From Rhodospirillaceae bacterium (GTDB lineage Bacteria > Pseudomonadota > Alphaproteobacteria > CACIAM-22H2), in the NCBI GenBank assembly GCA_022843945.1, contig JALHMR010000003.1:124001-188000 (forward strand): a stretch of 64,000 nucleotides of DNA. Reading direction: 5' to 3'. Each line of letters starts with the position of its first letter. Positions within the stretch are counted from its first letter, which is position 1. Position numbers and translations under genes: made by a program. The notes beneath the pieces were generated by a model that was given only the letters and a program-made list of their open reading frames with translations, did not search any database and was not told where the DNA came from. Positions 133 to 27,947 of the stretch are shown in pieces.

Positions 133-389
133 GCCGCATTCCCCGGCGTCGGCGCCTGCCATACCGGCTTGACCGACATAGACTTGTGCTGCTGCGTCTC
201 CATCACCTGCTCCAGGTCCCCTGTCTTGAATTCCTGTAGGCGTAGCTTCCCGCCTTCATCGCCTGTGCAGAGCACGACGGCGGTTGTTGGCCCCAGGCCA
301 CGCACCACCAGCATGTTCGGGCCGGCGCCCTTGGCGCGCACGACGGCGCCGCGGGCGAAGCCCAGCGAGGGGATTGCGGTCACGCTCAT
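129..389 (-). CDS. hypothetical phage protein, 86 aa
   Basis: This small protein has a Gly/Val-rich first half (residues 8-45) that could form a small beta-barrel, and a polar C-terminus. It sits in the leftward operon between the C5 methyltransferase, whose stop overlaps its start by 4 bases, and the partial gene at the left edge. No family or function is recognised. Confidence 0.6.
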   Translation of the reverse strand: MSVTAIPSLGFARGAVVRAKGAGPNMLVVRGLGPTTAVVLCTGDEGGKLRLQEFKTGDLEQVMETQQHKSMSVKPVWQAPTPGNAA

Positions 390-2326
390 GCCGCCTGCCT
401 CTTGGCCTTAGGTTTCGCCGCCGGCCGTGCTGCATCGGCCATGATCGCGCCGACGCAGGCCTTCATCTTGGCCACCGACACGGCGTTGCCGATTTGCTTG
501 ATCTTCTCCGTCTTGGTGCCAGCGAATTCGTACCGAGCCTCTTCGCTGTTGAAGCCCATCGCCGCTGCCAGCTCGTGCGGCTCGAGCATGCGGAACAGGA
601 TGTCGTAGCCGTCCACACCTTCGACCAGGTCTACATGACCCGTGGCCGCAATCGTCGGTGCCGGGTTGGCGATGTCGTGGACGCGCGGCGCCTGGCCGGG
701 ACGCTCGCCATGCTGGGCGGTGATGAAAGACAACTCGCCACGATTGGCGCCCGTCACGGCCGGTAACGGCTCATCCGGCCCGCGCACCCGGTCGCTCGTA
801 TCGTGATGTGTCACCGGCATGACCATGGCGAACTCGCCGCCCTTGGCTGTCGTCATCGTGGGTAAGGGCTGCTCAACGTCGCGTGGGTCTGGGCCGCCAT
901 TGCTGTTCGTGACCGGCACCACCATCCCGAACCGGCCTTTGCTGGTCACAGTGTCCAGCGGCACCTCGGCGCTCTTGCACGTCTCACCGGATCCGCTGCC
1001 GTAGTAGGGCGCGATCAGCACGTGACTCTGCTTGGCGACCTGCGTCGGTGTGGGCTCGTCGACCGCTCTCGGTGCGCCACCAGCGTGCCGGGAGAGGACG
1101 AAGGGCTCAACGAGCATGGGCCGTGCGCAGCCTGGGCGCCTGTCAGTCCCTGCGCCGCCTGTCGTAATCGTGGGGAGCGGATCACCTTCGCCACGCGGCG
1201 CGCCGGAGCTGTGCTGCGACAGAATCACCGCATCCGCTTTCCAGACCCCGCCCTTGGTGTCCAGCGTCGGCACTGGTGCACTCGATGCGCCAACGGCCTT
1301 GTTGCCCTTGCGGCCGTTTAGGATCAGCGGCTCGGCCACAGCGATCCGGCTGTCCGTCGCGGTCAGTGTCGGTGCAGGCTCGTCAACGCTGCGCGGCGCC
1401 GGTCCGCCGGTGTGCTGACGCGTCGAGAGGATGATCGGCTGTGCTAGCGCGATATGCCCTCCGCCCTTGTTGCCCCCGGTGCAGATCGTCGGCAACGGCC
1501 CGTCCACGCTCTGGGCGCTCATGTGGTTGCGCAGGATGACCAGGAACGGCTCGGGCCAGTTGAACTTGACCGCGCCGGCATGGATGCGCGCCAGCGTCTT
1601 CGGAGACAGCGGCTTCTTGCGGTTGAAGATCGACTTGCCACGGATGTCCCAGTCGATGATTTCCCGTGCTGCGCGCCAGGGCTTCGCCGTCGGGAAGAGC
1701 GCCAGGTTTTGCCCGGGCTTCTTCATATGCGTCGCGACCGGCCATTGCAGCGGTCTGCCATCGTTGCGCGCCATCAGGATGAAGCGCTGCCGGGTCGTGG
1801 CGTCGCCGTAGTCGGCCGCGTTGAGCTTCCGCCACTCGGGCTCGTAGCCCAGCTTGCGGATGACGTCGACCCAGGCTTTGAAGTATTCGCCCTTGCGCGC
1901 CTTGATCGGCTTGCCCGACCGCGCATCGACCGGGCCCCAGCCGATGAACTCCCAGACGTTCTCGATGATCATCCGCTTGACCCGAAGCTCGGTCAGCCAG
2001 GTGATGATGTGCCAGGGGTCGCTGCGCTGCTGGTCGCTGGTCGGCTTGCCGCCGCGCGCCACGCTGTGATGCGTGCAGGTCGGGCTTGCCATCAGCAGGT
2101 CGAGATAGCCCTCGGGCACCACCTGGTGCGGGCGCACGGTCGCGATGTCCTGGCAGTAATGCCGGGCCTCGGGGTGGTTGCGCTTGTGCGTCTCGATCGC
2201 CACGTCCCAGTGGTTGAGGCAGACCAGCTCCATCTCCAGCCCGAGATCCGCCAGCGCCCGCGCGCAGCCGGTTGAGGAGCCGCCGGCACCGCAGAGCAGA
2301 TCGGCAACGAGATACTTACGACCCAC
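386..2326 (-). CDS. phage DNA (cytosine-5) methyltransferase with tandem-repeat target domain
   Basis: This is a C5-type DNA methyltransferase. Motif I is VADLLCGAGGSSTG near residue 7, motif IV is the variant SPTCTHHS with the catalytic Cys near residue 84, motif VI is IIENVWEF near 121, motif VIII is QRFILMARNDG, and the last motif is QIGNAVSVAKMKA near the C-terminus. Between residues about 270 and 570 the target-recognition region consists of nine degenerate repeats of about 30-40 residues with the core R-x-V-D-E-P-x-P-T-x-T. It is about 646 aa, longer than the usual 350-450. GTG 2326 is chosen as start because it overlaps the upstream stop (TAGTG) and has GGGGGAGAAGG just upstream; ATG 2350 is the alternative. 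Target sequence and the presence of a cognate nuclease cannot be told; none is seen nearby. Confidence 0.9.
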   Translation of the reverse strand: MGRKYLVADLLCGAGGSSTGCARALADLGLEMELVCLNHWDVAIETHKRNHPEARHYCQDIATVRPHQVVPEGYLDLLMASPTCTHHSVARGGKPTSDQQRSDPWHIITWLTELRVKRMIIENVWEFIGWGPVDARSGKPIKARKGEYFKAWVDVIRKLGYEPEWRKLNAADYGDATTRQRFILMARNDGRPLQWPVATHMKKPGQNLALFPTAKPWRAAREIIDWDIRGKSIFNRKKPLSPKTLARIHAGAVKFNWPEPFLVILRNHMSAQSVDGPLPTICTGGNKGGGHIALAQPIILSTRQHTGGPAPRSVDEPAPTLTATDSRIAVAEPLILNGRKGNKAVGASSAPVPTLDTKGGVWKADAVILSQHSSGAPRGEGDPLPTITTGGAGTDRRPGCARPMLVEPFVLSRHAGGAPRAVDEPTPTQVAKQSHVLIAPYYGSGSGETCKSAEVPLDTVTSKGRFGMVVPVTNSNGGPDPRDVEQPLPTMTTAKGGEFAMVMPVTHHDTSDRVRGPDEPLPAVTGANRGELSFITAQHGERPGQAPRVHDIANPAPTIAATGHVDLVEGVDGYDILFRMLEPHELAAAMGFNSEEARYEFAGTKTEKIKQIGNAVSVAKMKACVGAIMADAARPAAKPKAKRQAA

Positions 2327-2736
2327 TAAACCTTCTCCCCCACCTGGCAATTCTCCTCACGCGCGATCTTCTGCGCCATCAGCACGGCTGACCGGGCCAA
2401 CGACCCCGGCTTGAACCACTCCGCCATCTCGTCGAGCGTGTGCCCGTCCTGCAGATGACGGGATAGGGTTTCGCCTATGTCATCGGCGTATCGGTGGAGG
2501 CTTGAGCCCCATTTGCCGGCGTGTTTTGTCGGTCGCAGGAATATCTCACCGGGTGCGCCGTCGTCGGGATGGAAGCCGACACGGATATAGATCGAGCGCC
2601 ACTCCGTGCGGTCCAGGCTCGGCTGCCACATGAACTTTTCGGCAATCGCCGGCCGGCGAGACGGCAGCAACCTCCTCTTGGGCGGCATGCTCCCGGTGCC
2701 TGAGGCTGGCTGTTGAGGATGAAGGGTGTCGGTCAT
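2326..2736 (-). CDS. TSCPD-domain-like phage protein
   Basis: Residues about 45-115 resemble the TSCPD domain found at the C-terminus of some ribonucleotide reductases and as stand-alone phage proteins: a YIRVGF strand, a GEIFL strand, a KWGSSLHRYADDIGETLS segment and a following helix with LDEMAEWF. The first 35 residues are Pro/Arg-rich and probably disordered. Stand-alone copies have no firmly known role. It overlaps its neighbours by ATGA and TAGTG, so it is co-translated with the two methyltransferases around it. The family match is moderate. Confidence 0.55.
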   Translation of the reverse strand: MTDTLHPQQPASGTGSMPPKRRLLPSRRPAIAEKFMWQPSLDRTEWRSIYIRVGFHPDDGAPGEIFLRPTKHAGKWGSSLHRYADDIGETLSRHLQDGHTLDEMAEWFKPGSLARSAVLMAQKIAREENCQVGEKV

Positions 2737-3533
2737 GCCAACACCTGACCTTGGGTTCCAGGGTTAGCGATGAACATGTCGCCCTGACGCTGAGCTTGTT
2801 CGATGCGCCGACAGGCTGTGTCGAAGTAGAGCTTCTCGATCTCGATGCCGATGAAGCGATAGCCCATCGTGACGGCGGCAACGCCTGTGCTGCCGGCGCC
2901 CATGTAGGGGTCGGCGATTACCCCCCCCCGAGCGATTCGAGCTTGCTCGATGCACCAGCGCATGAGCGGCAGCGGCTTCTGGGTTGGGTGAACGCGGGAT
3001 TGCCCGGCGGTCACCTCGTCGCGCGCCTGCGATCCGACACAGACGCCATCCCACAGCAGACGATAGATGCGCATCGGGCGGGGCGGATCATCGTTGATCC
3101 ACGCTGCCTCACCGTCGCCTTGATCGCGTATCTTGCCGGTCGGCACCTTGTCCCAAACCAACGACGTGCCGGCAGGCAGGCGGTGCCCGAACCGATGAGC
3201 GCCCCAGAGCAACACCCGCGGCGCCAGCGCCAGCAACGGCGCAGGATCAAACGGCTTGTCATCACCAACGATCTCATCAGGCCAGACAGTCGCAAGGCCC
3301 GTGCTGTGCAGAGCCCCAGAGCTCCGCGCCTTTGCCGCATTCGTCGAGGCGCGCGAACCGCAACGGGGCGGCGTCACAGCGCGGATGCCTCCGGCGTGTA
3401 CGACGTTCGTATTCTGCCGCTGCCCATACGGCGGATCGCTCACCACCGCATCGATGCCTGTGATCTGCGGGATGATCTCCCGGCAATCCCCCAGGTACAG
3501 CGTGGCGTTGCCGATGATGACGGGCTGGGTCAT
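2733..3533 (-). CDS. phage DNA amino-methyltransferase (N4-cytosine/N6-adenine)
   Basis: The N-terminal VVSDPPYGQ (motif IV, DPPY) comes before the C-terminal SAM site ADPYMGAGSTGVAA (motif I), the beta-class order. The HPTQKPLPLM segment before motif I is also typical of this class. Length is 266 aa. ATG 3533 is chosen because it makes the ATGA overlap used throughout the operon; a longer frame runs upstream but only through the neighbouring gene. A run of nine G on the coding strand (2931-2939 on the + strand as C) falls just before motif I. DPPY is compatible with either N6-adenine or N4-cytosine. Confidence 0.88.
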   Translation of the reverse strand: MTQPVIIGNATLYLGDCREIIPQITGIDAVVSDPPYGQRQNTNVVHAGGIRAVTPPRCGSRASTNAAKARSSGALHSTGLATVWPDEIVGDDKPFDPAPLLALAPRVLLWGAHRFGHRLPAGTSLVWDKVPTGKIRDQGDGEAAWINDDPPRPMRIYRLLWDGVCVGSQARDEVTAGQSRVHPTQKPLPLMRWCIEQARIARGGVIADPYMGAGSTGVAAVTMGYRFIGIEIEKLYFDTACRRIEQAQRQGDMFIANPGTQGQVLA

Positions 3534-4255
3534 GCCATCACCCACCGGTCGCGCGCCACTCGCCTGCCCGCGCCGCGCTGCAGCGTCTGCCTGATCTTCG
3601 CCCGATAGTTCGGGTTCCGTCGGGCCTTCGGGTGCTCGGACAGCGCGCGATAGAGATCCTGCACCGGCACCGGGCCGTGATACCGGCGCAGCACCTGCGC
3701 CACCGCCTCGCGCCAAGTCGGTTCCAACGCTTCGATCAGTACGCCCCGCGGGATGCGCAGCGGCACGAAATGCCCGGCGATGCCGCAGTAGGCGAGCACG
3801 TCGGCATCGTCCATGCCGTAGGCGGCCAGCACGACCGGCGCGCCGCTGTTCGCCACCTCACCTTTCTTGGTGGTGCAGAGCGATCCGTCCGGCTTGTGAA
3901 AGATCAGCCTGTTCTGAAGGAACAGGAGCGCCGTTGCTCCGCTCCACACTTCGCGGAACCATGCCGTCTCGGTGCGCGCATGCACGAGGGCCGTCCCGTG
4001 CCCGTGCTCTCGCATCTTCGCCAGCCAGAGGCCGACCACGTAGCGGTTGAACGGCGGATTCAGCCAGACCCGCCCGAACCAGGGCTGGGCAAGTCCGTCG
4101 TCCTTCTCGGTCAGCGTCACCCGGGCGCAGTCCCAGGGCCGGGGATCGTTACCGCACGGATCGAGGTCGAACACGCCCAACGGATCGAGGATGTGTCGCG
4201 GGGTGATATGCACCTGGCTGGCGCCGACGGTCTTTTGATGGGAGCCGAGGGTCAC
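3530..4255 (-). CDS. phage Dam-type N6-adenine methyltransferase
   Basis: This is a 241-aa protein of the phage Dam family. It opens with the thin SHQKTVGASQVHITPRHIL region, followed by FDLDPCGNDPRPW, and has the catalytic motif VWLNPPFNRY (NPPF). The GTG at 4255 overlaps the upstream stop as GTGA and gives the usual family length; the longer upstream extension lacks family features. It would methylate adenine in phage or host DNA, often as protection from restriction. Confidence 0.85.
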   Translation of the reverse strand: MTLGSHQKTVGASQVHITPRHILDPLGVFDLDPCGNDPRPWDCARVTLTEKDDGLAQPWFGRVWLNPPFNRYVVGLWLAKMREHGHGTALVHARTETAWFREVWSGATALLFLQNRLIFHKPDGSLCTTKKGEVANSGAPVVLAAYGMDDADVLAYCGIAGHFVPLRIPRGVLIEALEPTWREAVAQVLRRYHGPVPVQDLYRALSEHPKARRNPNYRAKIRQTLQRGAGRRVARDRWVMA

Positions 4256-7207: not shown

Positions 7208-8014
7208 TCAGTCGCGCCGCTCGACCACGATCTCAACGCTGCGCTTGAACATCATCGACAGGTCGCTGCCGTAACTCGCGTTCACCTGATCGGCGTGGAA
7301 GCGCGTCGGCGCGCTGAGACGAACAAACCGCGCATCGACGCTCGCCACGCTCAGCGCCTCAAACCACGAGCGATAGAGCACATCCCCGAAGCGCTTTTGC
7401 AGCTTGGGCTGCTGCTCGAACCACCAGCGCTCCACATCCGCTCGTCCGTTGCCTCGCATGCCCTCCGCCAGGGCCTCGCCCGCCGGGGCTGGCGGTGCCT
7501 GTCGCTCACTGCTCGCGCGCGCGAAGGTTCTTTGATGGTTCAATGACGGATCATCCATATGCCCCGCCACAGTTGACACCGGGGGGGCGTCAGCCTGACG
7601 GGGGGGTGCGTCACGGGTGGCACCGGGGGGCGTCAGGCTGGCACCGGGTTTTGACGGGGGGGCTGGTGTCAATCTGACGGAAGGCGTCAATCTGGCACCT
7701 CCCGCAGGCTTGGCGGGGGGGCGCGTCCGCGCCAGCGCATCGGGCGGCGCCAGGAGAAAGAACGCATCGCGGTCCCGGCCGCCCGTGCCCTTGATGTACC
7801 GCGGCTCGCGCCGGATGAACCGCTCCTCGATCAGATAAGCGATGTTGCGCTGCACCGTACGCTCGCTCTGCTCGGTCATGTGCTGCAGCCGCGCGTTGCC
7901 GGGCCAGCAGCAGCCGTCCTCGTCGGCGAAGTTGGCCAGCGCCACCAGCACCTGCTTGGCACCGGGATCGCCAATGGTCATCGACCACGCCCAGGTCATC
8001 GCCTCAACGCTCAT
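7208..8014 (-). CDS. phage replication initiator (helix-turn-helix plus DnaA N-terminal-like domain)
   Basis: 268 aa from ATG 8014 (ATGA overlap with the upstream gene). Residues about 5-90 form an HTH_36-type winged helix (MTWAWSMTIGDPGAKQVLVA, then LQHMTEQSERTVQRNI). Residues about 100-160 are a Pro-rich linker. Residues about 195-265 resemble DnaA domain I: WWFEQQPKLQKRFGDVLYRS, then LSAPTRFHADQV. This layout is typical of phage or plasmid initiators that bind origin repeats and load the host helicase. The linker DNA carries iteron-like repeats, as the lambda O gene does. Confidence 0.75.
   Translation of the reverse strand: MSVEAMTWAWSMTIGDPGAKQVLVALANFADEDGCCWPGNARLQHMTEQSERTVQRNIAYLIEERFIRREPRYIKGTGGRDRDAFFLLAPPDALARTRPPAKPAGGARLTPSVRLTPAPPSKPGASLTPPGATRDAPPRQADAPPVSTVAGHMDDPSLNHQRTFARASSERQAPPAPAGEALAEGMRGNGRADVERWWFEQQPKLQKRFGDVLYRSWFEALSVASVDARFVRLSAPTRFHADQVNASYGSDLSMMFKRSVEIVVERRD
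7587..7699. repeat. iteron-like direct repeats, candidate phage origin
   Basis: Five imperfect copies of G-C/T-GTCA-x-x-CTG-G/A-C start at 7587, 7608, 7630, 7666 and 7684; the copy at 7608 is the weakest. Several are followed by ACCGGG or runs of G, including G7 tracts. They lie in the low-complexity linker part of the initiator gene, the place where lambda-type phages keep their origin. They might only reflect repeated Leu-Thr-Pro codons. Confidence 0.45.
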
Positions 8015-9117
8015 TCGTGCGGCCACTCCCGATGCAGCTGGCCGTCGAGCAGCGCGCCGGCCTCGGCCTTGTCGACGCGGCGCATGTAGACATCGCCGAT
8101 ACGGTAGTGGCCATCGTTCTCGCGATCGGCGCAGACGTGGCGCACCAGGCCGCGGCGCATATCGCCACCGAGATCGCCGCCGGCGACGACGCGCGTCTCG
8201 GTCCAGCCGCCCCATTGCTTGAAGAAAAACGCCACGCCGGCCTCGGCGCACTGGTCGCGCAGCGAGCGCGCCCAGGCCGGGTGCATCGGCCGAGCGCCAT
8301 CGCCGCTCTCGCCGCCGGTGATCACCCAGTCCAGCCACTCGCCCGGCTGCATGTCGGGCGGCCCGGTCAGGGCGTTCTCGCAAAGGACGTTGTCGCCGAC
8401 CTTCTCGCCGGTCGGGATCATGGTCAGGTCGATCGGCCCGATCAGGGGCTCCGCCGAGATGAACCGGACCGCCGCAGGCGTCTTCAGCAGGTGCGGGATA
8501 CGCTCGTCGGCGGCATCCTGGTTTTCGGTTGAGACGCCCAGCCAGACGTTCGGCAAAGGCGCGTGATGCACAACGGCGGATTTCGCATCGACCGATGCCG
8601 AGGTTCGGTCCGGCACGAGGACGTCGATAGCCTCGCTGACTCGCGCCTGCCATGCCTTGACGTTCGGGGCTGGGTGCTCCGCGGCGAAGTACGCCCGCAT
8701 CCTATCCGCCCGCTTCGTCAGGATCTGGAACGTGTGTTGCGGGGCCAGGGCCATGACGGCGAACACCTTGTCGATGTCCTCGTCGCTCAGCTTCTCGTGG
8801 AACAGGTCCGAGGTGCTGTTGACGAAGATGCGTGAGGGCCTGCCTTCGGCCTTCGCCTTCTTCGATCCTTTCCAGCGCAGGGGCCAGTCGAGTTGATCGG
8901 GGATAAGCGCGACCTTGCCCGTCCACCGGGGCTCAAGGCCTTTCGATGTGGCGAAGCCGGCACCCCACATGGGCTTGCCTGTCTGCGGATTCCGGCCCGA
9001 GAACCGGGCGGCCATCTGCTCGGCATAGCAGTGCCGGCAGCCTTCGCTGATCCTGGTGCAGCCCCGCACCGGGTTCCAGGTGGCGTCGGTCCACTCTATG
9101 GTGGTACCTTGGCTCAC
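8011..9117 (-). CDS. Gp37/Gp68 family (DUF5131) phage protein
   Basis: 368 aa. The N-terminus has the family signature TIEWTDATWNPVRGC, with the Cys set C-x6-C-x2-C (GCTRISEGCRHCYAE) that resembles a radical-SAM cluster site. Later come FVNSTSDLFHE, TFQILTKRADRM, NVWLGVSTENQ, RFISAEPLIGPIDL and WVITGGESG, all characteristic. The biochemical role in phages is unknown. GTG 9117 is preferred over TTG 9132, which would begin only 3 bases from the tRNA-Arg gene. Confidence 0.85.
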   Translation of the reverse strand: MSQGTTIEWTDATWNPVRGCTRISEGCRHCYAEQMAARFSGRNPQTGKPMWGAGFATSKGLEPRWTGKVALIPDQLDWPLRWKGSKKAKAEGRPSRIFVNSTSDLFHEKLSDEDIDKVFAVMALAPQHTFQILTKRADRMRAYFAAEHPAPNVKAWQARVSEAIDVLVPDRTSASVDAKSAVVHHAPLPNVWLGVSTENQDAADERIPHLLKTPAAVRFISAEPLIGPIDLTMIPTGEKVGDNVLCENALTGPPDMQPGEWLDWVITGGESGDGARPMHPAWARSLRDQCAEAGVAFFFKQWGGWTETRVVAGGDLGGDMRRGLVRHVCADRENDGHYRIGDVYMRRVDKAEAGALLDGQLHREWPHE

Positions 9118-9135
9118 GACACCACCCCGCAAATC

Positions 9136-9212
9136 TGGCGCGACCGGCAGGACTCGAACCTGCAGCCTCCGGGTCCGGAACCCGGCGATCTATCCGGTTG
9201 AGCTACGGTCGC
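9136..9212 (-). tRNA. tRNA-Arg(CCG)
   Basis: The minus strand folds as a complete tRNA: acceptor GCGACCG with CGGTCGC, anticodon stem CCGGG/CCCGG with loop TTCCGGA (anticodon CCG), T-stem GCAGG/CCTGC, and encoded CCA. One D-stem pair is C-T instead of C-G. It lies inside the prophage early operon, between the Gp37/Gp68 gene and a second tRNA-like gene. Confidence 0.9.
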
Positions 9213-9295
9213 AAGAGGTGAGTGCGGGCCGGGCTGATTACCGGCCGTCGTGTCGATAGGCGTGGACTGACGCCTCGTTTTAGAGGTCCGGCATA

Positions 9296-9368
9296 GGGGA
9301 GCGGCAGGATTTGAACCTGCGACCCCCGCAGCAGAAAGCGGTGCTCTACCAGACTGAGCTACGCTCCT
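9296..9368 (-). tRNA. atypical tRNA (isotype unclear; CUG or UCU in an 8-base loop)
   Basis: The minus strand has tRNA-like acceptor (AGGAGCG with CGCTCCC, first pair A-C), D-arm GCTC/GAGC, and T-arm GCAGG-TTCAAAT-CCTGC. The anticodon arm is one base short: CCGC-TTTCTGCT-GCGG, a 4-bp stem with 8-base loop. The anticodon could be CTG (Gln) or TCT (Arg). CCA is not encoded. It may be a decayed tRNA or a special phage tRNA. Confidence 0.6.
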
Positions 9369-13199: not shown

Positions 13200-13397
13200 T
13201 TAAGCGGCCCTCTGCGGTGCTGGCACAATGTCCGGCCGGAGCAGGTGCGGCGGGGTGCCGGTGAGGTTTGAGACGGCCTTTACGTGGCGAGGCGGAATGC
13301 GCTTCCACTGCGACACGGCTTGCGTCGTGACGCCGCAGGCGTCGGCAATCGCCGTTACGCCTTTCCTTTCACGAGCCAAGCGGAGGCCTTTGTCCAT
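13200..13397 (-). CDS. Cro-like helix-turn-helix regulator
   Basis: 65 aa. Residues about 15-50 form an HTH: VTAIADACGVTTQAVSQWKR followed by IPPRHVKAVSNLTG, the pattern of YdaS/Cro-type phage regulators. The gene runs divergently from the repressor-like gene at 13482; the palindrome at 13408-13424 lies 11-27 bases upstream of its ATG, so it is likely controlled through it. Confidence 0.75.
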   Translation of the reverse strand: MDKGLRLARERKGVTAIADACGVTTQAVSQWKRIPPRHVKAVSNLTGTPPHLLRPDIVPAPQRAA

Positions 13398-14724: not shown

Positions 14725-14972
14725 TGCGCGACCCCTCCCCCATCTTCGACGAAGTCTCCGACGACGGAGACGCCTATCACGCGAGCCTGTCCCGGGAACG
14801 GCGCTCGGCCGAGGGAATCATGGGCGACCGGATGGGCGTGCTGGTGATGATCTCACACGCACGCATCGAGACACGAGAAGACCTGGAGCAGGTGATCAGC
14901 GCCCTCAATGAGGCGTGGAAGAAACACGAGACGCTGAAGGCGCCCATCGCGCGCCAGCAAATTCAATCTTAA
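14724..14972 (+). CDS. hypothetical phage protein, 82 aa
   Basis: An acidic protein with a helical C-terminal half (ETREDLEQVISALNEAWKKH). It overlaps the RHH gene by TGATG. No family is recognised. Confidence 0.6.
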   Translation: MRDPSPIFDEVSDDGDAYHASLSRERRSAEGIMGDRMGVLVMISHARIETREDLEQVISALNEAWKKHETLKAPIARQQIQS

Positions 14973-14988
14973 TAGGGGATCGGAAGCA

Positions 14989-15717
14989 ATGGCCCAGACC
15001 TGGCTCAAGGATGACAACGGCAACCGCTGCTCGGTCGAGTATTTCGGCTCGCGCGAAGCCGCCCAGGCGGCGCTCGATAGCCTGAAGAACTGCCGGGATT
15101 GCACGAACTGCTCCGGCTGCTCCGGCTGCTCCGACTGCTCCGACTGCTCCCGCTGCTCCCGCTGCTCCGGCTGCTCCGGCTGCTCCGGCTGCTCCGGCTG
15201 CTCCGGCTGCTCCGGCTGCTCCGACTGCTCCGACTGCTCCCGCTGCTCCGGCTGCTCCGACTGCTCCGACTGCTCCGACTGCTCCCGCTGCTCCGGCTGC
15301 TCCGACTGCTCCCGCTGCTCCGGCTGCTCCGACTGCTCCCGCTGCTCAAACGTCGCCTGGCTGGTCAACAGGCAGAACCTGAAGGGCGACCCGGACAGCG
15401 CAGCGCCGGCCGGGCCGCCGCCCGTCCCGGTCATCGAGAACATTCACCAGCGGATCCTTGAGGCTGTCACGGCGCCGGGCAATTCGCTCAAGATGAGCGA
15501 CTGGCACACCTGCAGCACTACGCATTGCCGCGCCGGCTGGGTCGTGCATCTCGCCGGCGAGGCCGGGTACGCCCTGGAGCGCTTCCACAACACCGCGCTG
15601 GCCGCGCAGCTCATCTACCGGGAGAGCGGCGCACCCATCAACCCGTGCCGGTTCTACGACGGCAACGAAGACGCCATGGCCGACATGAAGCGGCTGGCCG
15701 AGGGCGGGGCGGCGTGA
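14989..15717 (+). CDS. phage protein with 29 Cys-triplet repeats and a conserved C-terminal domain
   Basis: 242 aa. Residues 1-34 form a short globular lead. Residues 35-121 are 29 tandem Cys-x-x triplets: CRD, CTN, then 27 copies of CSG, CSD, CSR or CSN. Residues about 150-240 form a folded domain with HTCSTTHCRAGWVVHLAGEA and NPCRFYDGNEDAMADMKRLA, a domain I recall from other alphaproteobacterial phage proteins. The Cys at every third residue could bind several metal ions or form a beta-helix-like solenoid; neither is proven. Function unknown. Confidence 0.8.
   Translation: MAQTWLKDDNGNRCSVEYFGSREAAQAALDSLKNCRDCTNCSGCSGCSDCSDCSRCSRCSGCSGCSGCSGCSGCSGCSDCSDCSRCSGCSDCSDCSDCSRCSGCSDCSRCSGCSDCSRCSNVAWLVNRQNLKGDPDSAAPAGPPPVPVIENIHQRILEAVTAPGNSLKMSDWHTCSTTHCRAGWVVHLAGEAGYALERFHNTALAAQLIYRESGAPINPCRFYDGNEDAMADMKRLAEGGAA
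15091..15351 (+). repeat. 9-bp tandem repeat (TGCTCCGGC type), 29 units
   Basis: 29 units of nine bases, each TGC-TCC-(GGC/GAC/CGC) apart from the first two (TGCCGGGAT, TGCACGAAC) and the last (TGCTCAAAC). Period nine keeps the reading frame, so unit gain or loss would only change the length of the Cys repeat. It is not a CRISPR array: there are no spacers. Confidence 0.95.
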
Positions 15718-16493
15718 TGCACGGCACCGCCACCATCCCCGACGACGTGCTCGACGTGCTCAGGCAGAGCAGGATCGACGGCACCACGCTGTACCTGCCC
15801 GGCGCGCAGCTCGAGCGCTCGCTCTATGAGCGGGTGAACAAGGTCATCGAAGGGCTGGGCGGGAAATGGAACCGCAAGCTCCGGGGCCACCTGTTCACCG
15901 TGGACCCGCGCACGCTCTACGGCCAGGCGGTCGAGAACGGATCGTATGTAGACCGGAAGAAGGTGCTGCAGTTCTTCGAGACACCGGCCGAGATCGCGCG
16001 CCAGATGGCGGAGCGGGCCAAGATCAAGAAGACCGACCTGATCCTCGAGCCCTCTGCCGGACACGGCGCACTGCTCGCCGCGATCGACCAGAATCACCCG
16101 GGCCCCTACATCACAGCGGTCGATGTGGATGATGAAAACTGCCGCGTGCTGCGCGAGCGCTTCCCGACCATCAACGTGGTCTGCGGCGACTTCCGCAAGT
16201 GGGCCCACAACGTCGGGCCGGAGCTGGACGTCATCCTGATGAACCCGCCCTTCCACGGCGGGCAGGACATCGAGCACGTCAAGGCCGCCTGGGAGCTGCT
16301 GCGCACCGGCGGCAGGCTCGTCGCCATCCTCGGTGAGGGCGCCTTCATCCAGCAGAACAAGCGGGCCAAGGCCTTCAGGCTCTGGCTTGAGGACATCCAC
16401 GCCCAAGGCGAACGGCTGCCACCGGGGACCTTCAAGGAGAGCGGCACGAACGTAGCGGCCCGGATGATCTGGGCAACGAAGGGGGATGACTAG
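15717..16493 (+). CDS. SAM-dependent N6-adenine-type methyltransferase
   Basis: 258 aa from ATG 15717 (TGATG overlap). Motif I is ILEPSAGHGALLAAI near residue 120, the acidic loop is TAVDVDDENC, and motif IV is DVILMNPPFHGG (NPPF) near 178. This is the alpha/gamma-type order of N6-adenine methyltransferases. The N-terminal 110 residues (LPGAQLERSLYERVNKVIEG) recall a domain seen on plasmid and phage methylases. It is the fifth methyltransferase of the prophage, in the opposite operon. Confidence 0.8.
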   Translation: MHGTATIPDDVLDVLRQSRIDGTTLYLPGAQLERSLYERVNKVIEGLGGKWNRKLRGHLFTVDPRTLYGQAVENGSYVDRKKVLQFFETPAEIARQMAERAKIKKTDLILEPSAGHGALLAAIDQNHPGPYITAVDVDDENCRVLRERFPTINVVCGDFRKWAHNVGPELDVILMNPPFHGGQDIEHVKAAWELLRTGGRLVAILGEGAFIQQNKRAKAFRLWLEDIHAQGERLPPGTFKESGTNVAARMIWATKGDD

Positions 16494-26487: not shown

Positions 26488-26741
26488 ACAGAGAGGATCG
26501 TCCACGACCCTGCGCGCCGCGCGGCCTCTCCCGCACTGAGGCGGCAGCCTACATCGGCGTCTCGCCCACGAAGTTTGACGAGATGGTGGCCGACGGCCGG
26601 ATGCCGTCACCGAAGATGATCGACGCCCGCACGGTCTGGGACCGGCTCCGACTTGACGAATGCTTCGACGCCCTGCCTGATAAGGCCCAGGTTAACCCTT
26701 GGGATACGACTCTACGCGCCCATGAAGGTCAAAATGCCTGA
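26484..26741 (+). CDS. AlpA/excisionase-like protein next to integrase, 85 aa
   Basis: Starts at GTG 26484 (GTGA overlap). GLSRTEAAAYIGVSPTKFDE followed by MVADGRMPSP is a winged HTH of the AlpA/Xis type. Its position directly before the integrase gene, which starts inside its last codons, fits an excisionase. The Arg-rich start and long tail (WDRLRLDECFDALP) are also typical. Confidence 0.75.
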   Translation: MNREDRPRPCAPRGLSRTEAAAYIGVSPTKFDEMVADGRMPSPKMIDARTVWDRLRLDECFDALPDKAQVNPWDTTLRAHEGQNA

Positions 26742-27840
26742 CGGCTCGGGCACTCTGGATTTGCGATACCTGATCCGGGACGTGGACCGGCATGGCAAAG
26801 AGCGCATCTATTTCCGGCGCAAGGGCAAACCGAAGATCGCGCTGAAGGCGCCGGCGGGAAGCCGGGCGTTCCTCGAGAAATACCGGCAGGCCCTGCACGG
26901 CGACATTGAGCCGCGCGTCACCATCGGCGCAGCGTCACCCGGCAGCCTGCGCCACCTGTGCCAGCTCTACTATGGCTCGGCCGAATACAAGGGCCTGTCC
27001 CCGCGCACGCGCCACGTCCGCAAGCTGATCCTCGACGGGCTGTGTCGCAAGCACGGCTCGAATCCGGTCGACCGGATGGAATCGAAGCACGTCCGCACGC
27101 TGCGAGACGAGAAGGCCGAATTCCCCGAGGCGGCCAACGCCCGGCTGAAGCAGCTCCGCCAGGTCTTCAAATGGGCCGTCGAGGCCGAGCATATGAAGCG
27201 CAACCCGGCGCTGGACATTTCCTACATCCGCACAGGCTCGGACGGCTTCCACACCTGGTCGATCGAGGAGGTCCGCCAATACGAGAAGCGGCACGCGGTC
27301 GGCACCAAGGCCCGCCTCGCCCTCGATCTCCTGCTCTGCACCGGCGGCCGGCGCAGCGACGCCGTGCGCCTCGGGCCCCAGATGGAGCGAGCCAACGGCA
27401 CCGAGATCCACTTCACCGAGGCCAAGGGCCGCACGCGCATGATCAAGCAGCGCGCCATCCCCATCCTGCAGCAGCTCCGCCAGTCGATCGACGCCGCGCC
27501 CTCGGGGCACCTTGCCTATCTCGTGACGCACTTCGGCAAGCCGTTCACCAGCAACGGATTCGGCAACTGGTTTCGGGACCGCTGCGACGAGGCGGGCCTG
27601 CCCCACTGCACCGCGCACGGACTGCGCAAGGCGGGCGCCACGATCGCCGCAGAGCGCGGTGCCACCGAGCACCAGTTGATGGCGATCTACGGCTGGGAGA
27701 GCACGAAGCAGGCGGCGATCTATACGAAGAAAGCGAACCGCGGGCGGCTCGTGCGCGCCGCGATGCATCTCATCGTGCCGGAACAGGAAGCGGACGAAAG
27801 TGTCCAACCTAAATCCGGGTTGGACAATTTTGCCGACTAA
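26722..27840 (+). CDS. tyrosine-type site-specific integrase
   Basis: 372 aa from ATG 26722. Residues about 75-165 form the core-binding SAM-like domain. The catalytic domain has Arg210/211 (CTGGRRSDAVRL), Lys in the AKGRTRM beta-turn, H299-x-x-R302 (AHGLRKAGAT), Trp325 (IYGWES) in the second His position, and Tyr334 (AAIYTKKANR). It drives integration and excision at the adjoining tRNA-Phe gene. It is the last gene of the rightward operon, and its first codons overlap the AlpA-like gene. Confidence 0.95.
   Translation: MKVKMPDGSGTLDLRYLIRDVDRHGKERIYFRRKGKPKIALKAPAGSRAFLEKYRQALHGDIEPRVTIGAASPGSLRHLCQLYYGSAEYKGLSPRTRHVRKLILDGLCRKHGSNPVDRMESKHVRTLRDEKAEFPEAANARLKQLRQVFKWAVEAEHMKRNPALDISYIRTGSDGFHTWSIEEVRQYEKRHAVGTKARLALDLLLCTGGRRSDAVRLGPQMERANGTEIHFTEAKGRTRMIKQRAIPILQQLRQSIDAAPSGHLAYLVTHFGKPFTSNGFGNWFRDRCDEAGLPHCTAHGLRKAGATIAAERGATEHQLMAIYGWESTKQAAIYTKKANRGRLVRAAMHLIVPEQEADESVQPKSGLDNFAD
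27802..27830 (+). terminator. terminator-like hairpin at integrase 3' end
   Basis: GTCCAACC (27802-27809) pairs perfectly with GGTTGGAC (27818-27825) around an 8-base loop, followed by AATTTT. It overlaps the last codons of the integrase gene. It fits a weak intrinsic terminator for the rightward operon, or an arm site for the integrase. Confidence 0.5.
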
Positions 27841-27871: not shown

Positions 27872-27947
27872 TGGTGCCCAGGGCCGGAATTGAACCAGCG
27901 ACACTGCGATTTTCAGTCGCATGCTCTACCAACTGAGCTACCTGGGC
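27872..27947 (-). tRNA. tRNA-Phe(GAA), prophage attachment site
   Basis: The minus strand folds as a full tRNA: acceptor GCCCAGG/CCTGGGC, D-arm GCTC/GAGC, anticodon arm TGCGA-CTGAAAA-TCGCA (anticodon GAA), T-arm GCTGG/CCGGC, and encoded CCA at 27872-27874. Its 3' end faces the integrase, so this is the right attachment site and the functional copy. A duplicate of its 3' end should mark the left boundary outside the window. Confidence 0.97.

Follow-up and report, generated by a model that had tools for sequence, protein, structure and literature searches.

Phage proteins with length-variable cysteine-triplet arrays that appear to take the place of pentapeptide repeats

Introduction

Phage pentapeptide proteins (PF00805) are built of five-residue A(D/N/V/Y)L(S/R)(G/D) units with invariant Ala and Leu, and lack a Cys ladder. 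The antifreeze protein of Tenebrio, which is secreted by the insect, has a 12-residue repeat, disulfides and an ice-binding Thr face. TAL effectors consist of near-identical units of about 34 residues in which one or two positions differ, and their repeats are reshuffled from strain to strain.

The window analysed here, a stretch of 64,000 nucleotides from a Rhodospirillaceae bacterium (GenBank assembly GCA_022843945.1, contig JALHMR010000003.1, positions 124,001 to 188,000), encodes a protein in which every third residue over 87 residues is Cys. The first-pass annotation described it as a phage protein with 29 Cys triplets coded by a 9-bp tandem repeat, and suspected a variable-length module, able to change length in frame, attached to a conserved C-terminal domain (C-domain); these points are borne out below. 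Beyond them, sequence comparison indicates that the array is swapped with pentapeptide repeats and that its third residue varies in a restricted and apparently selected manner. We propose, with a probability of about 0.5, that the protein acts in the cytoplasm as a modular binding rod of variable length, built around a Cys core, where the solenoid fold, the inward orientation of Cys and the binding role are the parts that we infer.

The gene and its repeat array

The gene (14989..15717, plus strand) starts with ATG and encodes 242 residues followed by a stop. Its N-terminal cap (residues 1–34; 14989..15090, plus), which was also aligned among 16 relatives (A4), is predicted by AlphaFold2 to form a strand-strand-helix unit. 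The array (residues 35–121; 15091..15351, plus) comprises 29 uninterrupted C-x-x triplets, as read directly from the sequence and in agreement with Tandem Repeats Finder, which reports a 9-bp array at 15108–15347 with 26.7 copies and a 91% match. There are 11 TGCTCCGGC, nine TGCTCCGAC and six TGCTCCCGC triplets, and three border units are represented once each. When the residues of the protein were shuffled 2000 times, C-x-x runs reached at most five triplets. The array is followed by a segment starting with NVAWLVNRQNLKGDP and a linker (15352..15420, plus), and many relatives have a similar segment. The C-domain (15421..15714, plus), with the motif WHTC-x-TTHC-RAGW, is alpha-helical with a hairpin according to AlphaFold2 and alignments A1 and A3, the latter revealing further conserved His and Cys residues. 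The stop codon of the array gene overlaps by one base (TGATG) with the ATG of a methyltransferase-like gene (15717..16493, plus), which has an NPPF motif, a match to Pfam MTS (E 4.7e-8) and phrog matches.

Several other open frames overlap the array, e.g. 14853–15443 and 15005–15349 on the minus strand and 15099–15461 on the plus strand, and these are side effects of the repeat. The reading frame used here is supported because relatives keep Cys irrespective of the Ser codon that prevails, namely TCG (50), TCC (18), TCA (5), TCT (4), AGC (3) or AGT (2) among 82 distinct arrays.

A presumed prophage locus

The host genome amounts to 5.38 Mb in 82 contigs. An integrase gene (26653–27840; phrog_1) abuts a tRNA-Phe gene (27872–27947), and leftward of it lie a repressor-like gene (13203–13397, minus) and a replication-initiation gene (7211–8653, minus). 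On this basis the array gene, which belongs to a rightward gene cluster together with the methyltransferase-like gene at 15717, is presumed to sit in a prophage; this and the phage family relatives agree with its initial description as a phage protein. The C-domain is present in a single copy in the host genome (E below 0.2).

The presumed prophage also contains two tRNA genes (9136–9368, minus), one of them called with a four-base anticodon (tctg), and two further DNA methyltransferase-like genes are found in the leftward region of the window (389–3716, minus), additional to the one at 15717. PF00805 matches occur at 90 places in the host genome, and the genomes of many relatives are similarly rich.

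No conserved operon partner was found in 81 records, many of them incomplete. The largest neighbour clusters correspond to recombination genes, namely YqaJ (11 of the 81 records) and ERF (10), and YqaJ, ERF and RecT family genes recur near the array gene in a minority of records.

A widespread phage family

The window protein matches two phage protein clusters, phrog_31265 (residues 146–242, E 3.1e-22) and phrog_15341 (residues 8–129, E 1.2e-14). The former match, together with alignments A1 and A3, confirms that the C-domain is conserved; the window protein has both its WH-x-C-x-TTHC-RAGW motif and the downstream LAG..G..LE. Pfam and NCBIfam yielded no family for the protein. In IMG/VR, 223 relatives of the whole protein were confirmed by tblastn, and 80 of these were fetched. 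The set examined comprises 83 records (the window, L001–L081 and L087), with L082–L086, which represent the window again and weak matches, excluded; a Cys-array ORF is present in 82 of the 83 records, amounting to 83 ORFs. The family is recognized by more than six in-register C-x-x triplets between cap and C-domain, an arrangement found in the window protein. Array size ranges from 7 to 59 triplets, some arrays being cut by contig ends, and totals 2600 triplets. The first position is Cys in 2595 of them and the second is Ser in 2208, while the third is mostly occupied by Asp (1026), Gly (745), Arg (560), Asn (105), Tyr (69) or His (43).

Records of bacterial genomes contributed eight loci with the C-domain. 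Cys arrays with caps are found in alphaproteobacterial (L088) and Rhodospirillales (L090) MAGs, Kaistia (L089) and Phyllobacterium (L092); the Methylobacterium locus (L091) has a Cys array cut by the contig edge, and the Sphingomonas locus (L094), also edge-cut, was left without class. The Paracoccus MAG (L093) and Nitrosomonas MAG (L095) loci are of the LTVGG and pentapeptide types, respectively. One named phage record, that of Flavobacterium phage FL-1 (KY421186), matches the whole protein. Its locus (2473–3300) contains a Cys-array ORF of 36 triplets that is absent from the annotation, the deposited CDS covering the C-domain only; the frame breaks within the C-domain, perhaps due to a sequencing error. 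Another contig (L013) encodes two adjacent Cys-array genes, near 4074 and 4962, with 46 and 53 triplets and a different array order.

Full-text literature searches on Cys-triplet or phage pentapeptide variation, at the level of listings, yielded no description of the family. The string CSDCSDC was absent from the literature searched, and CSGCSGC occurred only in papers of unrelated title. This is a widespread, uncharacterised family of phage proteins.

Exchange of arrays and C-domains

A diverse alignment of the C-domain confirmed 429 relatives in IMG/VR, of which 80 were fetched and classified together with the window (entered again as L176) and L177, some contigs being shared with the whole-protein set. 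In these 82 loci, the ORFs with a C-domain include 36 of the Cys-triplet type (the window among them), 33 of the pentapeptide type, five that are too short and nine 'other' in eight loci. By eye, several of the latter are pentapeptide-like, L146 has hexapeptide repeats and L116 contains two copies without repeats. Pfam confirms pentapeptides in L087, L095 and L113, the first being a Bordetella plasmid protein in which 49 pentapeptides are joined to a window-type C-domain. In L146 (3392–4306), the C-domain is fused after hexapeptide repeats of the left-handed beta-helix type (Pfam Hexapep, E 4.8e-18), and LTVGG-type repeats precede it in L093. The two copies in L116 (3508–4330) stand alone, and the second follows a stretch that we take to resemble the start of a DNA cytosine methyltransferase. 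The first-pass annotation had regarded fully functional homologues without the repeat, together with an absence of bound metal, as what would speak against its reading; half of that stands, in that repeat-less homologues of the C-domain exist in L116. Its view of the array as a variable-length module on a standard domain fits well with the range of array sizes and with C-domains that carry other repeats or none.

The exchange extends to the other end. A DNA-pattern scan of IMG/VR for Cys arrays returned at least 80 loci; among those listed, arrays in L242, L261, L277 and L306 end in other domains and the array in L246 ends in none. The L242 tail matches 134 phage records, including annotated pentapeptide repeat proteins of Caulobacter phages BL94, Jess A and RapA, and the L277 tail weakly matches the pentapeptide protein of Caulobacter phage GB2A (E 7e-3). 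Since relatives of these two tails follow pentapeptide arrays in isolated phages, array type and C-domain type have been exchanged both ways. The short profiles of the N-terminal caps revealed no relationship between Cys-type and pentapeptide-type proteins, and thus the equivalence of the two kinds of array rests on the shared C-domains. Judged from this exchange of modules, the Cys array appears to occupy a slot for solenoid modules.

Pentapeptide sister arrays bring to mind MfpA and Qnr, and the protein might likewise be a DNA-mimic rod that inhibits gyrase or a host nuclease, a notion that agrees with the recombination genes among its neighbours. Such a mimic should be consistently acidic, however, whereas the array charge (Arg minus Asp) spans −29 to +8 with a mean of about −6 in 75 arrays, which renders this explanation highly unlikely.

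Perfect runs consisting of CSG only were also seen in other phages (e.g. L229, L232, L237 and L284). They probably represent a repeat of some other gene, read in another frame.

Rapid turnover of array units

Where relatives have identical flanks, their arrays differ in length by multiples of the 9-bp unit, as expected if the repeat changes length without shifting the frame, and unit order differs as well between phages with such flanks. The comparison of repeat number, proposed in the first-pass annotation for strains, was possible for three pairs of metagenome contigs, in which a 9-bp repeat may be misassembled from short reads: L165 and L170, identical over 1500 bp on each side, have 28 and 25 triplets; L002 and L004, identical over 373 and 1500 bp, have 37 and 42; L077 and L081, near identical close to the gene, have 50 and 30. 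No further relatives of these three pairs were found besides the pairs themselves.

Isolated phages of Caulobacter and Acinetobacter provide comparable pairs, which are of the pentapeptide type and have C-domains that differ from that of the window. Jess A and RapA display no mismatch in 1056 + 1734 bp of flank, but their arrays, composed of three unit types, have 20 and 27 units. RW and GB2A, likewise without mismatch in 1119 + 1690 bp (4 gap positions), differ by 25 units, and Acba_3 and Acba_13 by five units with 2 mismatches in 2814 bp. The authors of a report on Caulobacter phages describe a 375-bp deletion in the pentapeptide gene of GB2A; they regard Jess A and RapA as almost identical and list an equal host range for both (PMC11053796). 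One array is common to RW, RLK and KcrB, and one to Acba_3, 4, 15 and 16. Moreover, in SR18 (L361), a relative of Jess A, a different 204-bp gene (2597–2800) takes the place of the pentapeptide array gene of Jess A and RapA. Because SR18 lacks the array gene at this place and separately isolated phages have identical arrays, turnover is fast but not constant.

The hypervariable prophage genes of Liberibacter (lasA) were set aside as a parallel, their repeats being 132 bp long and their products being described as autotransporter-like by the authors (PMC4249863).

Apparent selection within arrays

Codon differences from the majority were counted at each triplet position in 82 distinct arrays. 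Units in one array are copies of one another, so that the figures are counts and not rates, with copying affecting both classes alike. Cys codons show 62 synonymous and five nonsynonymous differences, compared with 40 and 384 at the Ser position and 10 and 1437 at the third position. The dominant Ser codon, the identity of which varies between arrays, has a mean share of 98% and reaches at least 95% in 76 of the 82 arrays. With arrays shorter than 12 triplets excluded, as well as the first two units and the last unit of each array, 86 of 101 arrays contain all of Asp, Gly and Arg, and 89 of the 101 have a uniform third base in the third-residue codon. Third residues are spelled GAC/GGC/CGC in mostly C-ending arrays (82) and GAT/GGT/CGT in T-ending ones (18).

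Pentapeptide arrays with a window-type C-domain follow the same pattern, having 18 synonymous and 740 nonsynonymous differences in 30 arrays, nearly all at the three positions other than Ala and Leu. By contrast, chromosomal pentapeptide controls from related bacterial genomes, which may include prophage genes (L219 has a ratio of 0), have 564 synonymous and 1620 nonsynonymous differences in 34 arrays; arrays scoring below 10 were dropped from this comparison. We read these sequence patterns as frequent homogenisation through unit turnover, combined with selection that would fix Cys and keep the third residue mixed.

An in-frame 9-bp minisatellite that arose by chance and slips neutrally would account for the fast gain and loss of units, and outside the family this DNA unit does form perfect runs of CSG alone, 32 of the 42 runs there being all Gly. 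However, none of the 43 runs in family context is all Gly, Cys hardly changes nonsynonymously while synonymous change occurs, and different Ser codons maintain the same protein pattern. Neutral slippage is already disfavoured by these data and we consider it most improbable.

Targeted mutagenesis by a diversity-generating retroelement is also unlikely, because reverse transcriptase (RVT_1) was found in none of 36 genomes or records (the host genome and 35 virus records, possibly fragments).

The order of letters within arrays displayed no autocorrelation of note. Autocorrelation of identity, charge and bulky residues, at lags of 1–20 or 1–16 triplets, provided no consistent signal for a turn length; of the many tests, a few stood out singly, with z values as extreme as 3.6 (lag 13) and −3.4 (Arg, lag 1).

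Fold and the role of cysteine

AlphaFold2 was run with a 46-sequence family alignment (A2; the L015 row was dropped due to a stop codon) and, in a second run, on the array by itself. Confidence is high for the N-terminal cap (pLDDT blocks of 85, 88, 92 and 79) and the C-domain (mostly 86–98), whereas the array has a pLDDT of about 30 with the alignment, is below 50 over most of its length, and has a mean of 46.8 when modeled alone. Neither the family alignment nor the array alone yielded a solenoid fold, and no confident counterpart of the right-handed four-sided beta-helix of pentapeptide repeat proteins emerged. With the whole-protein model as query, Foldseek searches of viral models and the PDB, followed by VIA-align on the best 70 PDB chains from Foldseek, returned no convincing known fold for the C-domain, and a profile search of PDB sequences gave a best E of 0.34.

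The low confidence across the array and the lack of periodicity would suit a flexible, mainly disordered element, Cys-rich or crosslinked through redox-sensitive disulfides, which requires only richness in Cys, Ser and charge. Against it stand the exact three-residue spacing of Cys, which 83 ORFs maintain through arrays of 7 to 59 triplets, and the occurrence of the C-domain with repeats of known solenoid type; moreover, failure of AlphaFold2 is no proof of disorder for a repeat without a known fold. On balance, we regard a disordered or redox element as clearly unlikely. What favours a solenoid for the array is the company that the C-domain keeps. In a pentapeptide-related knotted solenoid, conserved Cys pairs lie close together and form no disulfides, providing a useful parallel for thiols inside a solenoid (PMC13123833).

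No hydrophobic N-terminal signal was found in the window protein, and the array is therefore expected to reside in the cytoplasm. The cytoplasm is a reducing environment, where proteins without a signal are expected, and thus a disulfide ladder, one of the options raised initially, is less likely. The same environment would suit a metal-thiolate protein, in which successive C-x-x-C motifs of the ladder would coordinate metal ions or clusters in a row, making it a metallothionein-like store, buffer or sensor. Indeed, Cys is nearly invariant even though small hydrophobic residues could fill a core, its codons change synonymously in strong excess, and the C-domain contributes extra conserved His and Cys. 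A pure store, however, has no obvious reason to have its C-domain in common with pentapeptide and hexapeptide arrays that lack Cys, and needs no mixed Asp/Gly/Arg alphabet, and no metallothionein family was matched in Pfam or NCBIfam at E up to 1. We consider metal binding of this kind unlikely overall, yet it is the main rival, followed by the disordered or redox element, the DNA mimic and neutral slippage.

A proposed binding rod

In the length-variable binding rod that we prefer, the probably cytoplasmic protein consists of the short cap, the array of Cys triplets and the conserved C-domain, and the array would most likely take over the role that pentapeptide or other beta-solenoid arrays have in sister proteins sharing the C-domain. 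The repeats would build a stiff rod with Cys as the core side chain and with outward faces made of Ser and a small alphabet, mostly Asp, Gly and Arg. Whole 9-bp units are gained, lost and rearranged much faster than the remaining phage sequence changes, while selection would hold Cys fixed and keep the outward residue mixed. The rod might thus be a tunable binding surface that presents the C-domain to a target in the host or in a rival phage. A more specific version, which we view as speculative and doubtful, sees in the array a minimal beta-solenoid of a new kind, with sides three residues long and a thiol-lined bore (e.g. four Cys per twelve-residue turn), possibly with a metal stack; the outward Asp, Gly and Arg would spell a recognition code that is rapidly rearranged and used by phages in conflicts with their hosts or with competing phages.

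If the binding rod is real, phages would own exchangeable repeat rods, with the Cys-triplet module replacing pentapeptide, hexapeptide or LRR-like solenoids on one C-domain and with length and order varying among otherwise identical phages. A fixed core, uniform codons and a restricted but varied surface look like selection for surface diversity, which would point to a form of phage conflict that has gone unrecognised. In that case, the Cys module itself might represent a new protein fold or a regular scaffold of metal thiolates.

Comparison with known systems

Phage pentapeptide proteins share the most with the window protein: the C-domain (the Bordetella protein is 50% identical to the window protein over the aligned part), a similar layout of cap, array and C-domain, and variation within arrays at uniform codons. 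They differ in the repeat unit, and indeed the window protein, with its period of three residues, lacks the A(D/N)LXX pattern and has no Pfam match (PF00805/PF13599 included) at E up to 1. Both phrog_31265 and phrog_15341, to which the window protein can be assigned, are unannotated clusters with no function, fold or repeat analysis attached. The Tenebrio thermal hysteresis protein (1ezg) is likewise Cys-rich with a short repeat, and phmmer weakly matches it to the array (E 0.0025). However, this match is probably a composition effect. The array contains one Thr and no T-x-T ladder. Metallothioneins also have many Cys residues and C-x-x-C spacing, but the window array is far more regular and is set between two folded domains. 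Finally, the array, although nothing in it points to recognition of nucleic acids, may be compared with TAL effector repeats in its near-identical, reshuffled units, with a unit of three residues instead of about 34.
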